Source of the DNA: Nocardia sp. CNY236
GTDB taxonomy: Bacteria; Actinomycetota; Actinomycetes; Mycobacteriales; Mycobacteriaceae
Direction: 5' to 3'
Assembly: GCF_000482385.1 (NCBI RefSeq)
Contig: NZ_AXVD01000003.1
Span: 124,001 to 188,000 of the forward strand
DNA: 64,000 bases
Positions within the stretch are counted from its first letter, which is position 1. Every line of letters begins with the position of its first letter. The notes under the pieces were generated by a model, which searched no databases, was not told the DNA's origin, and was given only the letters and a program-made list of their open reading frames with translations. The position numbers and the translations under genes were made by a program. Shown here piece by piece: positions 38,473 to 45,861 of the stretch.

Positions 38473-39186
38473 CTACTGCTGGAACCGATAGCCCATGCGG
38501 GCCTCGGTGAGCAGGTGTTTCGGCCGTGAGGGGTCGTCCTCGAGTTTGCGGCGTAGTTGCGCTAGATAGACCCGGAGATAGTGCGTTTCGGTGGCATAGG
38601 ACGGGCCCCATACCTCGCGCAGCAGCTCGCGCTGTCCGACCAGCTTGCCTCGATTGCGCACCAGCATTTCGAGCATGCCCCACTCGGTAGGCGTCAGATG
38701 GACGGCTCGGCCGTGCCGGGTGACTTGTTTGGCGGCAAGGTCGACGGTGAACGACGACGTCGTCACGACCGGAGCCGACGAGTCGCCGCGCCGGCGCACC
38801 GCCGCCCGCAGCCGTGCCAGCAACTCGTCCATGCCGAACGGCTTGGCGACATAGTCGTCGGCGCCGGCGTCGAGCGCCTCGACCTTGTCGGCGGAGTCGG
38901 TGCGCGCCGACAGCACGATCACCGGCGCCGAGGTCCAGCTCCGCAGGCGCGTCAGTACCTCGACGCCGTCCATATCGGGGAGGCCGAGGTCGAGGATCAC
39001 CACGTCCGGAGTTCGGTCGGCCGCCGCACGCAAGCCTGCGTCACCGGTGGCTGCGGTCACCACCTCGTATCCACGGACCGACAGATTGATGCGCAGTGCG
39101 CGCACGATCTGCTGTTCGTCGTCCACCACGAGCACCGTCGCCGGCGACGTCTCGGGCGTGGGCGCACTTGTCGCCTTCTGCGTCAT
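38473..39186 (-). CDS. kdpE: Response regulator KdpE
   Basis: 237 residues. OmpR/PhoB-type regulator: receiver domain with acidic pair VVDDEQQ, phosphorylation site Asp66 (VVILDLGLPDMDG) and Lys in DDYVAKPFGMDE, then a winged-helix DNA-binding domain (LTPTEWGMLEMLVRNRGKL, and ETHYLRVYLAQLRRKLEDDP). The sequence is close to KdpE, which turns on the KdpFABC potassium pump. It starts 10 bp after kdpD with a GAGGTG site. No kdpFABC genes lie in the window. Confidence 0.93.
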   Translation of the reverse strand: MTQKATSAPTPETSPATVLVVDDEQQIVRALRINLSVRGYEVVTAATGDAGLRAAADRTPDVVILDLGLPDMDGVEVLTRLRSWTSAPVIVLSARTDSADKVEALDAGADDYVAKPFGMDELLARLRAAVRRRGDSSAPVVTTSSFTVDLAAKQVTRHGRAVHLTPTEWGMLEMLVRNRGKLVGQRELLREVWGPSYATETHYLRVYLAQLRRKLEDDPSRPKHLLTEARMGYRFQQ

Positions 39187-39196
39187 CGTGGGCACC

Positions 39197-41635
39197 TCAT
39201 TCCTCTGCGCTCGTGGTGTCGTGCACGTCCGCCCCCTCGGATTCGGCCCGGTCGTCATCGGCGGGCAAGTCGACCAGCATGGTCAGTCCGCCCCCTGGAG
39301 TCGGTTGCGCGCGAACGGTGCCGCCCATGGCCTCCACGAATCCGCGCGCTACCGAGAGACCGAGCCCGACACCGGAGGTGCTGTCTCCGAGGCGTTGGAA
39401 TGGTTCGAACAGTTGATGCTCGGCGCCCTGCGGTACACCGGGACCGGAATCCACCACGGCGATGAATACTCGGTCGCCGGCGTAGTCGGCTGTGACGTGC
39501 ACCGTGGTCGGGTGCGGGGTATGCCGCAGAGCGTTGTCGATCAGGTTGGCAAGCACCCGTTCCAACAAGCCGTCGTCGGCGAGTACCGCGACGTCGCCGA
39601 CCTCGACCCGGACTCGGGCCATCGCCGCGTGCCGCGTTCCCATGCCGATACTCACCAGCGCGCGATGCACTGTCTCGTCCAGATAGACCCGTCGCACCCG
39701 CGGCGTGACCACACCGACCGCGAGGCGTGAGGAGTCCAGCAGATTGCCGACCAGCGCAGTGAGCTGATCGACCGACTGTTCGATCGTCTCCAGCAGTTGG
39801 GCGGTGTCGTTCGGGGAGAACTCGATGTCGTCGCTGCGCAGACTGGAAACCGCTGCTTTGGCTCCGGCCAATGGCGTGCGCAGGTCGTGGCTGACCGCGG
39901 AAAGCAGTGCCCGCCGCAAACGGTCGGCTTCTTGCAGGGCTGCAGCGGCGTTCGCCTCCTCGGCCAGCCGCGTCTGTCGCACCAACGCCACGGCCTGGTT
40001 GGCCACCGCGCTCAGCACAGGCCGGTCGGTTGCCGCCAAGGCAGGACCGGCCAGCAACAGCCAGTGGCTGGCATCACCTGCCTCGATCACGGTGCTCGCT
40101 TCCGAGGGCGCATAGGGAGGATCGACCCCGATCGTGGCGAGCACCTGGTCGCCGGCAGTCAGGCTCACAGCCCGCTGGGCGAAGACCTCCCTGATCTGCC
40201 GTAGCAACCCGGGCAGGTCGGTGCCGTGCAGTATGGCGCCAGAGAACATGGTCAGCAGCTCGGCTTGTCGAGCTGCCTTTCGCGCTTGCCGGGTTCGTTT
40301 CGTGGCCACGTCGACCAACCCGGCCACTGCGACACCGACGATGAGCAACACGCTCGCAGTGATCATGTCGTTCAACTCTGCGACCGCGAGGTTGTAGCGC
40401 GGTGGCGCGACGAACCAGCTCATCAACACCCCGGACAACAATGCGGCACACGCCGCGGGCACGATCCGGCCCAACAGGGCCACGGCGACGACACCGACGA
40501 CGAACAGTGCGCTGACCCCGCCGAGCCCCAGTGCGTCGTTCAACAGAGTCACAGCCAGGGTGAACACGACGGCGGGGATCAGGAATGCCGCCAGCCAGGC
40601 GCCCATGCGGCGGCGTGAACGCGACGCAGTGCGTCGGGAGCCACGACGCGCGTGCTCGTGAGCCACCACGTGAATGTCGATCGCGTCGGACAGGCTCACC
40701 ACCGTAGAGCCGACGTCTTCGTCCAGTATCCGTGCCCAGCGTGCACGTCGTGATCGTCCGATCACGAGCTGGCCGGCGTTCGCTTCCCGAGCGAACGCCA
40801 GCAGAGTCTGGGCCACGTCATCGCTGGTGACAGTGTGCAGCGTCGTTCCCAAGGCTGCGGTGAGCTCGCGCAGCCGGGCAAGCCGCTCGGCGGCGCCGGC
40901 AGCCGGGCGAACACTACGGACGACGTGGACGACGGCCAGGTCGGCATCGGCATCGGCGGCGATCCGGTATGCCTTGCGGATGATGGTCTCCGACTCCGGG
41001 CCGCCGGTCACTCCCGCGACCACACGTGACTGCCGGACAGGCTCGGAGATCGGGAGATCGGCCCGGAACTCGGCTGCGGCAGCGAACTCGGCTGCGGAGT
41101 CGACTTCGGTGGTCAGCCACCGGACGGTCAATTCTCGCAGCGCGTCCGGCGTCATGCCGACCAGTTCCACTTCGTCCGCGTAGCGCACCACGACCTCGGG
41201 AACGGTCTTGCGCTGGTGACCGAGCCGCGTTGCGGCCTGTTCCAGTCCCTCCAGTTGTTGTAGGCCGACCGTCGAGATCACGTCGATGCCGGCGTCGAGC
41301 AGCTCGCCGACGTCTTGCCACCGCTCGGTGTGTCCGCTGCCCGTCGTGTCGGTGTGGGCCAGCTGGTCGATCAGCACCGCGGCGGGTGCACGCCGTAACA
41401 CCGCCTCGACGTCCAGTTCGCACCAGGTGGCGTTGTTCACCTCGACCTGTTTCGGCGGAATCCGTTCGATGCCGTCGAATGCTCGTGCGGCCTGTTCTGG
41501 GCCGCACGTTCCGCCGAGCGCGGCCACGACGTCGCGCCCACGTCGCAGCTGTCGGCGCGCCTCGTTCAGCATGGCGTCGGTTGTGTCGACTCCCGGTGCG
41601 ACGCCGAGGCAAATACGCAGCTGACCGCGTTTCAC
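39197..41635 (-). CDS. kdpD: Sensor histidine kinase KdpD with degenerate N-terminal ATP site
   Basis: 812 residues. Order: KdpD N-terminal domain (1-200), universal-stress-like domain (about 210-340), four membrane helices (DUF4118, about 350-470), GAF-like region, then kinase core with SAVSHDLRTPLAGAK (phospho-His), NLIDNALRHTP and GVGLGLSVARGF. The N-terminal P-loop, normally GAAPGVGKT, reads GVAPGVDTT (residues 11-19): the Gly-Lys is lost. The Walker B-like DELAHTN reads DQLAHTD (90-96). So the regulatory ATP-binding site is probably non-functional while the kinase domain looks intact. Start GTG 41635 has a poor ribosome site. It lies next to kdpE. Confidence 0.95.
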   Translation of the reverse strand: MKRGQLRICLGVAPGVDTTDAMLNEARRQLRRGRDVVAALGGTCGPEQAARAFDGIERIPPKQVEVNNATWCELDVEAVLRRAPAAVLIDQLAHTDTTGSGHTERWQDVGELLDAGIDVISTVGLQQLEGLEQAATRLGHQRKTVPEVVVRYADEVELVGMTPDALRELTVRWLTTEVDSAAEFAAAAEFRADLPISEPVRQSRVVAGVTGGPESETIIRKAYRIAADADADLAVVHVVRSVRPAAGAAERLARLRELTAALGTTLHTVTSDDVAQTLLAFAREANAGQLVIGRSRRARWARILDEDVGSTVVSLSDAIDIHVVAHEHARRGSRRTASRSRRRMGAWLAAFLIPAVVFTLAVTLLNDALGLGGVSALFVVGVVAVALLGRIVPAACAALLSGVLMSWFVAPPRYNLAVAELNDMITASVLLIVGVAVAGLVDVATKRTRQARKAARQAELLTMFSGAILHGTDLPGLLRQIREVFAQRAVSLTAGDQVLATIGVDPPYAPSEASTVIEAGDASHWLLLAGPALAATDRPVLSAVANQAVALVRQTRLAEEANAAAALQEADRLRRALLSAVSHDLRTPLAGAKAAVSSLRSDDIEFSPNDTAQLLETIEQSVDQLTALVGNLLDSSRLAVGVVTPRVRRVYLDETVHRALVSIGMGTRHAAMARVRVEVGDVAVLADDGLLERVLANLIDNALRHTPHPTTVHVTADYAGDRVFIAVVDSGPGVPQGAEHQLFEPFQRLGDSTSGVGLGLSVARGFVEAMGGTVRAQPTPGGGLTMLVDLPADDDRAESEGADVHDTTSAEE

Positions 41636-41741: not shown

Positions 41742-41840
41742 CTACCGCGCCTGTGGGCGGCCGGAGCGCGCTCGGACCCCGAGGGCGCGAACGACCAGCA
41801 TGCAGCAGACGAATCCCACGATGAGGGTTAGCGCTGACAT
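41742..41840 (-). CDS. Possible small single-helix membrane peptide
   Basis: 32 residues: MSALTLIVGFVCCMLVVRAL then a basic tail. One membrane helix; AGGACG lies six bases before the ATG. It sits 107 bp upstream of kdpD on the same strand, and size and topology recall KdpF, the 30-residue subunit of the K+ pump, but the sequence is not diagnostic and the rest of the pump is absent here. Confidence 0.35.
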   Translation of the reverse strand: MSALTLIVGFVCCMLVVRALGVRARSGRPQAR

Positions 41841-42246
41841 CACAGCGTCCTAGTCCTTGCCGAGCGGTCGGCATCGAGCGTTGTGGAGCTGTTCGACAGC
41901 ACCCGTTCGCTGTTCCTACCTTCGACGCGCACGTCGACCTCGATTCTGTGTGAATGAAGACATCACCTGGACGAATGTGCCAGCAGTAGGTCCGGAAATT
42001 CTCTTGTGGGCCGCGGCCCGACTTCCGACGGCTGGCTGATGGTCCTGGTATCGCGGCTACTGCGCAGTCGTCGGTGGCCGCACGAAGCACGGTATGCCAG
42101 CCGATACCGTGACTCAGTCTGCACCGCAATCGGAGCAAATGCAATGGATCCAACGAGGGATTCGGGGGACGAGTCGATAGTCTTGGCTCTCGGATACCAC
42201 TGCCGCGTCGAACAGACCGACGACCATATGAACCGAAAGGTCGAAT
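41841..42246. other. Divergent intergenic region between kdpDE block and smc
   Basis: 406 bp without a convincing gene. It must hold promoters for both directions. A perfect 8-bp stem (CACGGTAT / ATACCGTG, 42088-42111) with an 8-nt loop is the only structure noticed. Confidence 0.4.
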
Positions 42247-45200
42247 TTGCACCTGAAGAGTCTGACGTTGAAGGGCTTCAAGTCCTTCGCGTCCGCGACG
42301 ACGCTGCGATTGGAGCCCGGCATCACCTGTGTCGTCGGTCCGAATGGATCGGGTAAATCGAATGTCGTCGACGCGCTCACCTGGGTAATGGGCGAGCAAG
42401 GTGCGAAGGCGCTGCGTGGCGGCAAGATGCAGGATGTGATTTTCGCCGGCACCTCGGGTCGTGCCCCGTTGGGTCGTGCCGAAGTCACGTTGACCATCGA
42501 CAATTCCGATGGTGCGCTGCCCATCGATTACGCCGAAGTATCCATCACCCGGCGCATGTTCCGCGATGGTGCCGGCGAGTACGAGATCAATGGCGGCGGA
42601 TGTCGCCTGATGGACGTACAGGAACTTCTGAGCGATTCCGGCATCGGACGCGAGATGCACGTCATCGTCGGGCAGGGCCGATTGTCGGCCATCCTGGAAT
42701 CGCGCCCGGAGGATCGCCGTGCCTTCATCGAGGAGGCGGCCGGCGTGCTCAAGCATCGCAAACGCAAGGAAAAAGCACTGCGCAAGCTCGATGCCATGCA
42801 AGCCAACCTGGCCCGTCTCACCGATCTCACGAGCGAACTCCGTCGCCAGCTCAAACCATTGGGCAGACAAGCCGAGGCCGCCCGCAGAGCCGCAACCGTG
42901 CAGGCCGACCTGCGCGACGCGCGCTTGCGCCTGGCGGCCGACGACCTGGCGGCTCGTCGCGGCGAGTTGCAAAGCCAACAGAGCAAGGAAGCCTACGCTC
43001 GTGAGCAGCAGCTCACGGTGCAGTCGGAGTTGGATGCCGCCAATGCCGCACTGGCCGAGCACGAATTCCAGCTGTCGCGTCTGGCGCCCAGGGCCGAGGC
43101 AGCCGCACAGCTGTGGTTCGACCTGTCGGCGTTGTCCGAGCGGGTCGGCGCAACCATTCGCATCGCTACCGACCGGGCACGCCACCTCGACACCGCGGTC
43201 CCGGTGGGCACCGGGCGCGACCCCGAGCAGCTCGAAATCGAAGCGCAGGCGATCGAGGCGCAGGAGAGCGAGCTGCGAGCTGCGGTCGAGATGGCGATCG
43301 AGCTGTCGGCGGCGGCGGGTGACCAGGTGGCCGAACGCGAGATGGCCGCGAAGGCCGCCGAACAGGCGCATCTGGCTGCTGTGCGTGCGGTCGCCGACCA
43401 CCGAGAGGGGGTGGCTCGGTTGTCCGGCAGGGTCGACACCGTGCGCGCCGGAGCTCAGACGGTGGACGCGGAGATCGTCAGGCTCTCGGCCGCCGTCGAG
43501 GACGCGAGGCGACGCGCGGAGGTCGCACACGCCGAATTCGACGCGGCGCAAGCCGAACTCGCCGAACTGGAGGCGAGTGAGGCAGGTCTGGACGCACAAT
43601 CCGAGCACGCTGCGCAGGCACTGGAATTGGCCGATCGACGCGTCGACGAACTGCGCGAGGAGGACCGCGAGGCGGGCAAGCGGGTGGCGTCGTTGGATGC
43701 GCGTATCGAAGCGCTTGCCATGAACCTCACTCGCCGCGACGGGGCTGCCTGGCTGGCACAGCACCGCGAACAGGACGTACGCGGTGCGCTATCGACGTTG
43801 CTGCGGGTGCACAGCGGTTACGAAGCGGCGGTCGCCGCCGCCCTCGGTCTGCTGGTGGATGCAGTGACGACCGACACCGGCGAGTCCGCCCACGCCGCGA
43901 TCTCTGCGCTCAAAGAGTCCGATCAGGGGCGCGCCGCAGTGGTGTTCGGCGCTGAGGCCATCGACCGGCAGCGGCTCGGTGCGCCGCCCTCCGGCGGCCG
44001 CTGGCTGATCGACGTGGTCGAGTGCCCCGATGCGGTCCGGGGCGCGCTCGAGGCGCTGACGTCGGGCACCGCCGTGGTCGACGATCTGCCCGCCGCTCGG
44101 GTGGCCCTCACGATTCGGCCCGACATCCGTGTGGTCACCCGCGACGGCGACCTCGCTGGAAACGGTTGGCTGCTGGGCGGTTCCGACCGCGCACCGAGCC
44201 AACTCGAAATCCGTTCCGACATCGATACCGCCGAGAACGATCTGGTCGCGGCGCGGCGCCGCGCCGAGGAACTCGAGGCAGCGCTGTCGGGTGCACTGGC
44301 CGAACAAACCGACCGCAAGCACGCCGTCGACCACGCGCTGCTCGCCTTGCACGAATCCGATCAAGCGCTGACTGCGATCTATGAACGCCTCGGCCGGCTC
44401 GGTCAGACCGCTCGCGCAGCGCATGCGGAGGGTGAGCGCCTGCAGGCCCAGCGCACCGCTGCCGAAGACAGCAGAAAGGAAGCGCTCGCCGGTCTCGCCG
44501 AATTGGAAGAGCGCCTCCGGCATGCCGAAGCCGATCGACTCGACGGCGACAGCGCGGGCGCGGCGGGCGCAGAAACAGCGAGCCGGCTGCGCGAAGAAGC
44601 GGCGGCCGCGCTGGCCGAGGCGCGGGCGCGGGAGGTCGAGGCCCGGCTCGCGGTTCGCACTGCCGAAGAACGTGCGGAATCGGTACGCGGGAAAGCGGAT
44701 TCGCTGCGCCGCGCCGCGCATGCCGAGAAGGAAGCGCGCGCTCGCGCGGAGCGCGCTCGCGCTGCGCGCACCAAGGCCGTCGAGGTCGCGGTCGCCGTCG
44801 CCGCGTCCGGCGGAAAGATCGCCGCGGAGTTGGAGGTCGTGGTCGGCGCGGCGGCTGATCGCCGTGATGGCCTGGTACGCCGGCGCTCCGAATGCGCCAC
44901 ACAGGTCGAGCAGATCAAGGAGCGGGTGCGGGTGCTCACCGGGCAGCTGTCCGACCTCACCGATGCGGTGCACCGCGACGAGGTGGCCAGGGCGCAGGCG
45001 GCACTGCGCATCGAACAGGTGCAGACGACCATCACCGAGCAGTTCGGAATCGCGTTCGACGATCTGATCGCCGAGTACGGACCCGATGTCCCGGTCCCGC
45101 CGTCCGCACTGGAGTTGCAGGAATACGAGCAGGCCACGCAGCGTGGCGAACAGGTCACCGCACCGGTTGCCATGCCCTACGATCGGCCGACTCAGCAGCG

Positions 45201-45861
45201 GCGCGCCAAACGTGCGGAGAAGGATCTGGCGACCCTGGGTAAGGTCAATCCGCTCGCGCTGGAAGAGTTCGCAGCACTCGAGGAACGCTACAACTTCTTG
45301 TCCACCCAACTCGATGACGTCACCAATGCTCGCAGCGACTTGTTGGGCGTGGTCGCCGAGGTCGATGCGCGCATCCTTCAGGTGTTCACCGACGCCTACG
45401 CCGATGTCGAGCGTGAGTTCGTCGACGTGTTCGCGACATTGTTCCCTGGCGGTGCGGGCAGACTGTTGCTGACCGACCCTGCCGACATGCTCACTACCGG
45501 CATAGAAGTGGAGGCTCGTCCACCGGGTAAGAAGGTCAAGCGGTTGTCACTGTTGTCGGGCGGGGAGAAGTCGCTGACTGCCGTTGCGCTCCTGGTGGCC
45601 ATCTTCCGCGCGCGACCGTCACCGTTCTATGTGATGGACGAGGTCGAGGCGGCGTTGGACGACACCAACCTGCGCCGGCTACTCGGATTGTTCGAGCAGC
45701 TTCGGGAGAAGAGCCAGCTGATCGTGATCACCCATCAGAAGCCGACGATGGAGATCGCCGACGCTCTCTACGGTGTCAGTATGCGTGGTGACGGAATCAC
45801 ACAGGTGATATCTCAGCGACTGCGGGGTCACAACCTGGCTGCGGCCGGTACGACGGGGTGA
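42247..45861 (+). CDS. smc: Chromosome segregation ATPase SMC
   Basis: 1204 residues. SMC dimer with ScpAB organises and segregates the chromosome. Head N-part: [20 protein letters not shown] with Walker [14 protein letters not shown]; long coiled coils flank the hinge (about 510-680); head C-part has the ABC signature [17 protein letters not shown] and Walker [14 protein letters not shown]. The TTG at 42247 is accepted because GAAAGG lies nine bases upstream and SMC homology begins with [14 protein letters not shown]. Followed convergently by the DUF2237 gene. Confidence 0.97.

Follow-up and report, generated by a model that had tools for sequence, protein, structure and literature searches.

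Does the ATP site at the N-terminus of the potassium sensor KdpD serve the Kdp pump alone, or also the sensor's own switching? A locus of Nocardia sp. CNY236 bears on this question: the window, a stretch of 64,000 nucleotides (C3:124001-188000 of the source genome), carries on its reverse strand a kdpD gene of 812 codons (39197..41635) that has lost this site and kept its histidine-kinase core, in a genome in which neither KdpA nor KdpB was found. We think it likely, with a probability of about 0.7, that loss of kdpFABC was followed by decay of the serine-kinase site, the histidine-kinase core and KdpE being kept and now signalling to other genes. The pattern of a sensor kept and a serine-kinase site lost recurs in other actinobacteria, and genomes that hold the sensor without the pump thus address the question by evolution, the site being gone in 17 of the 35 that we read.

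KdpD can be viewed as two kinases in one chain, a C-terminal K+-sensing histidine kinase and phosphatase for KdpE and an N-terminal serine kinase, and the E. coli core both phosphorylates and dephosphorylates KdpE. Older work in E. coli favours a part for the N-terminal site in the sensor's switching, as truncations covering the Walker A motif deregulate the phosphatase (work cited in PMC2714519, as far as the available part of that article goes). Work from 2024 favours a role for the pump: in the accessible part of that report, the E. coli N-terminus is an atypical serine kinase that switches off the pump by phosphorylating KdpB at S162, inhibiting it at high K+, and this phosphorylation is abolished or almost abolished by mutation of Walker A, W39/R190, D109 or E110 and persists without the DHp and CA domains (PMC11018627). 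The same part describes the serine-kinase function in E. coli and one short relative; its survey of 5495 species took those in which a Kdp pump is annotated, which leaves pump-less KdpDs outside it (PMC11018627). A literature search that left most subscription papers uncovered turned up no report that pump-less species have lost the serine-kinase site of KdpD.

The N-terminal ATP site is lost and the histidine-kinase core is kept

The source genome (G000 where a label is needed; other G numbers are comparison genomes and L numbers are loci) is a 5.30-Mb draft in 74 contigs. Its kdpD is an uninterrupted frame whose product has the domain order KdpD, Usp, DUF4118 (transmembrane, TM), HisKA and HATPase_c, with HisKA and HATPase_c above cut-off in a profile search. 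A first-pass annotation of this DNA had proposed that the N-terminal ATP site was lost and the histidine-kinase core intact, and the sequence supports both parts; the observation was correct and understated. As it had read them, Walker A (residues 11-19; 41579..41605, reverse strand, as for all kdpD positions below) translates as GVAPGVDTT, with D-T in place of G-K at residues 17-18 (GAAPGVGKT in relatives), and Walker B (residues 90-96; 41348..41368) as DQLAHTD, with D-Q in place of D-E at residues 90-91 (DELAHTN in relatives) and Q at the position of the catalytic E110 of E. coli. The codons are GAC-ACA for D-T and CAG for Q, where three relatives have GGC-AAG for G-K and GAG for E; because several base changes are needed, a single miscall does not explain the loss of the motifs.

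The damage extends beyond these two motifs. The residue after the P-loop is D here, Y in the relatives shown and W39 in E. coli, and in an alignment with 20 relatives an in-frame deletion of 31 residues, between residues 164 and 165 (41141..41146), removes the segment ALRRRLSHGNVY...GNLT, including the equivalent of E. coli R190. Aligned residue by residue and numbered as in E. coli K-12 KdpD, the lost positions are G36, K37, W39, E110 and R190. Missing here, of what the serine kinase requires, are the G-K of Walker A, the D-E of Walker B, the adenine pair W39/R190 and the substrate KdpB. The KdpD domain (PF02702; residues 2-168, 41132..41632) is still recognised at 165.3 bits against a cut-off of 26.1, matching model positions 1-169 of 210 and leaving the last 41 unmatched; in a draw of 148 genus genomes its score, 168.7 bits, is the lowest among the matches listed, the other KdpD matches listed scoring 312-339 bits save one at 264.7, a shortfall far larger than chance would produce.

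The C-terminal half presents a different picture. The HisKA/DHp domain (residues 574-638; 39722..39916) is conserved and the HATPase_c/CA domain (residues 687-792; 39260..39577) keeps its motifs, and the alignment finds SHDLRTPL, DNALRH, DSGPGV, FEPFQR and GVGLGL, which we take to be the H, N, G1, F and G2 boxes. The partner gene kdpE (38473..39258, reverse strand) adjoins kdpD and is intact, with Response_reg and Trans_reg_C domains and a mean identity of 83.9% to KdpE of 10 relatives.

The loss is not shared by a clade within the genus: among 150 genus genomes there is no close relative of this KdpD, the best other match to residues 1-169 having 65% identity, and every one of the 50 loci read, from 37 genus genomes, has intact motifs. 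A full-protein search for related loci returned one distant histidine-kinase match.

The Kdp pump is absent and its place appears deleted

A profile search found no KdpA (PF03814) anywhere in the source genome and no KdpB (TIGR01497) above cut-off (best 208 bits, against 527.9), the search covering KdpA and KdpB, with none aimed at KdpC or KdpF alone. The KdpB matches below threshold are no more than other P-type ATPases would be expected to give. The remark in the first-pass annotation that kdpFABC is not adjacent is therefore true and too weak, as KdpA and KdpB were not found genome-wide at an estimated completeness of 100%; nor does the genome hold an intact second kdpD beside kdpFABC, one KdpD alone scoring above cut-off. 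KdpA is present in 143 of the 148 genus genomes and missing from the source genome, G026, G055, G098 and G137. The last four have no KdpD over cut-off either, which amounts to loss of the Kdp system, so that the source genome is the sole one of the five to keep the sensor.

Gene order indicates where the pump may have stood. In all 12 testable near relatives, meaning those with both gene starts in the DNA examined (the smc start fell outside for G039 and G023), the starts of smc and kdpD are separated by 9.8-10.5 kb and both genes have the orientation seen in the window, with kdpA between them. These pump-bearing near relatives share with the source genome the order of kdpD and kdpE and their orientation relative to smc, and differ from it in the kdpA between and in their intact motifs. 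In one of them (G007), KdpA and KdpC were found in the gap, along with an ADH-like gene and, at the place of KdpB, a P-type ATPase. In the window, smc (42247..45861, forward strand), the flank marker for the former place of kdpFABC, lies 611 bp from kdpD. Homology to relatives upstream of kdpD ends near 41965, an alignment edge read by eye, and resumes near the smc start codon; the stretch between (41965..42246), with no clear match in relatives, is the putative scar left where the segment between the two genes was lost. Elements that relatives conserve on the kdpF side were not found upstream of the source-genome kdpD. The simplest account of this arrangement would be that the pump operon was lost in place from between smc and kdpD. 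In three farther relatives (G094, G114 and G123; loci L059, L056 and L061) smc lies on the opposite side of kdpD, about 7 kb away, on the kdpE side of kdpDE and not the kdpA side, and kdpA still flanks kdpD.

Divergence is uneven within KdpD

With domain borders set by us, percentage identity to 14 near relatives (in brackets, among those relatives) is 63.1 (94.8) for the KdpD domain, 61.0 (93.4) for the Usp domain (residues 204-316; 40688..41026), which is strongly diverged too, 66.9 (91.4) for TM, 74.4 (87.5) for GAF, 92.9 (97.1) for DHp and 78.3 (92.4) for CA. The control proteins give 83.0 (94.4) for SMC, 89.6 (94.5) for AGL with OsmC and 83.9 (95.3) for KdpE. Of the residues invariant in 20 relatives, the KdpD domain has lost 60 of 135 (37 replaced, 23 deleted), Usp 31 of 91, TM 9 of 52, GAF 2 of 32, DHp 1 of 55 and CA 2 of 52, or 60/135 in the KdpD domain against 3/107 in the histidine-kinase core.

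Selective constraint was estimated as omega with a purpose-written codon branch model on nine taxa, using a tree from AGL and OsmC in which the branch joining the near relatives without G000 has a support of 63; the G000 branch is a long one, and the estimates are approximate. For the G000 branch and the background, respectively, omega is.287 and.043 in the KdpD domain (p 3e-9),.123 and.032 in Usp (p.002),.101 and.069 in TM with GAF (p.26),.053 and.011 in DHp (p.011) and.174 and.053 in CA (p.005), and omega = 1 is rejected in all five parts. KdpE evolves at the background rate (.053 and.050, p.92), its receiver and DNA-binding domain aligning closely with those of pump-bearing relatives. As KdpE, AGL (.038 and.044, p.53) and OsmC (.058 and.031, p.39) show no significant shift, the decay does not look like a general property of this small genome.

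Across the class, site loss accompanies pump absence or a second copy

A draw of 394 genomes from the class gave KdpD above cut-off in 227 and a KdpA match in 195, with both in 193 and KdpD alone in 34, the source genome included. One of the 193, G248, in which KdpA is no more than a weak fragment (E 5.8e-5), was assigned to the pump-less set, which thus comprises G000, G248 and 33 others, 35 in all, every one of which was read. Seventeen of these 35 keep no KdpD with K37 and E110. By comparison, at least one KdpD with both residues is held by 140 of the 140 pump-bearing genomes read, out of 192 with full KdpD and KdpA (193 with G248), the other 52 being unread. The first pump-bearing controls (40 loci) were the best-scoring rows and hence biased; for this reason 66 lower-scoring pump-bearing genomes were listed and 64 of them read (not G282 and G420), together with 40 more loci. 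One of the readings, with 90 of 90 pump-bearing loci intact, includes the 50 loci from 37 genus genomes given above.

By row, 146 of 151 pump-bearing sequences are intact (144 of 149 distinct sequences). The five that are not (L220, the second copy in L233, L234, L235 and L236) come from G378, G493, G481 and G447, in each of which the KdpD nearest kdpA is intact and the damaged ones are second copies. On the pump-less side, 38 distinct domain sequences include 18 intact ones, G000 not included; the row count of 24 intact and 26 not intact includes 12 genes fetched twice, which were counted once in trees. In the genomes read, then, the loss of serine-kinase residues is confined to KdpDs from pump-less genomes and to second copies that accompany an intact KdpD. 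Two pump-bearing genomes with low KdpD scores, G439 and G420, were considered as counter-examples and rejected, their scores being low from matches cut at contig ends; the G439 fragment has intact Walker motifs. A draw from the phylum, 80 pump-less genomes taken in order, yielded one with a full KdpD, its motifs intact, so that the pattern rests on the class-level data.

Elsewhere in the class the commonest change is E110 to D. One clade also has K37 changed to T or S, with E110 kept in two of its rows, and in 15 rows of this clade the N-terminal domain has a mean identity of 77.4%, against 82.1% for the next 600 residues. A dead site can thus persist in a stable domain, which in this clade probably still does something, to judge by that conservation. 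Unlike it, the N-terminal domain of G000 is itself breaking down.

Losses form eight clades on a tree of 188 rows, built without the KdpD domain and leaving out rows with fewer than 150 residues after it; a tree of 86 rows needs seven changes. Independent-pair sign tests gave 4.8 pairs for and 0 against on the 86-row tree (median p 0.0625) and 3.9 for and 1.0 against on the 188-row tree (median p 0.375), the latter labelling second copies in pump-bearing genomes as pump-bearing. Eight losses distributed over the tree in proportion to branch length would have a probability of 3.6e-6 of all landing, as they do, on lineages that lead only to pump-less genomes or to genomes from which more than one row was read. 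These branches make up 20.9% of tree length and were chosen as a set once the data were known. We take the association of site loss with pump absence as real, though not as a law.

Several loci met in this survey have neighbours worth recording. In two pump-less genomes, G218 (L114, E to D) and G278 (L119, intact), kdpD adjoins TrkH and TrkA genes, and in two others with intact motifs, G515 (L126) and G502 (L124), a TrkA gene lies about 1-2 kb from kdpD. Such neighbours may have been recruited as targets of regulation, or even as substrates, and their position suggests a switch of regulatory target by these KdpDs. G493 (L233) has two oppositely oriented kdpD genes, separated by about 5 kb and next to a single kdpA, with DE and DD, respectively, in Walker B. 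The DD copy is followed by a response regulator and adjoins genes that we take to be PPE-like from the look of their sequence.

Weighing the explanations

The sequence of events that we favour would begin with deletion of kdpFABC from its place between smc and kdpD, as synteny suggests. Deprived of its known substrate, the serine-kinase active site would then have decayed, and with it the ATP-dependent N-terminal input to the phosphatase is presumably gone. With both KdpE and the histidine-kinase core retained, sensing of K+ or turgor by the pair most likely continues, and its control would extend to genes other than kdpFABC. We give even odds to a broader proposal, that pump-less KdpDs are separate, recurrent sensors that shed the serine kinase once its substrate was gone and became plain K+-sensing histidine kinases with new targets.

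A number of observations weigh against this account. In 18 of the 35 pump-less genomes at least one KdpD still has both K37 and E110, so that loss of the pump does not always remove the site, and the dead second copy of G493 lies only 8.6 kb from kdpA, so that dead copies need not be remote from the pump. The commonest change elsewhere, E to D in Walker B, is conservative and may leave the kinase active; that the pump was lost before the site is an order that we infer. With pump labels set by genome, neither sign test reaches significance, and the only strong test, on branch lengths, is the one with the branch set chosen in hindsight. Usp has diverged no less than the KdpD domain, so the decay is not confined to the serine kinase, and omega is raised in DHp and CA as well. 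Lastly, the position of smc on the other side of kdpD in three farther relatives means that gene order has changed within the genus.

The first-pass annotation had read the loss as fixing or re-tuning the kinase/phosphatase balance, independently of the pump. Its premises, a lost site and an intact core, stand, and the deregulated phosphatase of the E. coli truncations (PMC2714519, in the part available) and the long retention of dead-site KdpDs in the clade with K37 changed to T or S both speak for it. It leaves unexplained, however, that loss is seen only in pump-less genomes or second copies, and in G000 the breakdown runs through much of the domain and is not a change at a single site; we regard this reading as doubtful, the better-supported cause being the absent pump, with the serine kinase acting on KdpB. 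Alternatively, the kdpDE pair could be on its way to a pseudogene after pump loss, the N-terminus having decayed first and the rest being about to follow, which would fit the raised omega of DHp and CA, the absence of KdpD over cut-off from the four other pump-less genus genomes and the missing kdpF-side elements. That course is unlikely in view of the open frame, the rejection of omega = 1 in each of the five parts of kdpD, a KdpE that evolves at background rate with domains closely alignable to those of pump-bearing relatives, and the near-complete set of invariant residues in the core beside the heavy losses in the KdpD domain. An error of sequencing or assembly, or a kdpFABC missed in a gap, would be conceivable in a draft of 74 contigs, but the changes span 60 invariant positions with the frame kept, kdpD lies inside a contig of 287,601 bases and directly neighbours smc, the two being separated by kdpA in near relatives, and KdpA and KdpB are both missing at full estimated completeness, all of which makes such an error highly improbable.

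If the broader proposal holds, conservation of the serine-kinase site would be owed mainly to KdpB as its substrate, and histidine-kinase signalling would not need that site. For annotators, our findings suggest a test, namely that a KdpD without K37 or E110 probably serves no Kdp pump, and the pattern of loss raises the question of which genes pump-less KdpDE pairs regulate.

Known systems offer partial parallels. E. coli KdpD, in the accessible part of PMC11018627, has the same domain order (KdpD, Usp, TM, HisKA, HATPase_c) and the same partner, KdpE; unlike it, the source-genome KdpD has lost G36, K37, E110 and R190, and its pump is absent. The short KdpDs of the D. geothermalis type, described in the same part of that report, likewise show that the two activities are separable in evolution, as a mirror image in which the serine kinase is kept and the histidine kinase missing (PMC11018627). 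In Francisella the Kdp system is partly broken, with kdpA a pseudogene in one strain and kdpD remaining, and, unlike here, kdpE is a pseudogene in some strains, as far as the available part of that source shows (PMC6584805).

Other features of the locus

The kdpE open reading frame (ORF) as called shares 62 bases with the end of kdpD, and, to judge by alignment with relatives, translation probably begins further downstream. Immediately upstream of kdpD and in the same orientation, a small hydrophobic ORF (41742..41843, reverse strand) with a conserved FVCC core survives despite the loss of the pump; it encodes 33 residues here and about 41 in relatives (L046, L047, L049, L050, L052 and L053) and may represent a membrane peptide of the kdpDE operon that annotation has missed. 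We considered it as a kdpF remnant and dropped this identity, because relatives have a separate conserved small ORF here on the kdpD strand and their kdpF-like ORF lies on the opposite one. In many relatives (L044, L046, L047, L049 and others), a further ORF of 27 residues (MSVVVFTALTVAVFALLGLVQRGVEKL type) stands on the kdpFABC strand ahead of kdpF.

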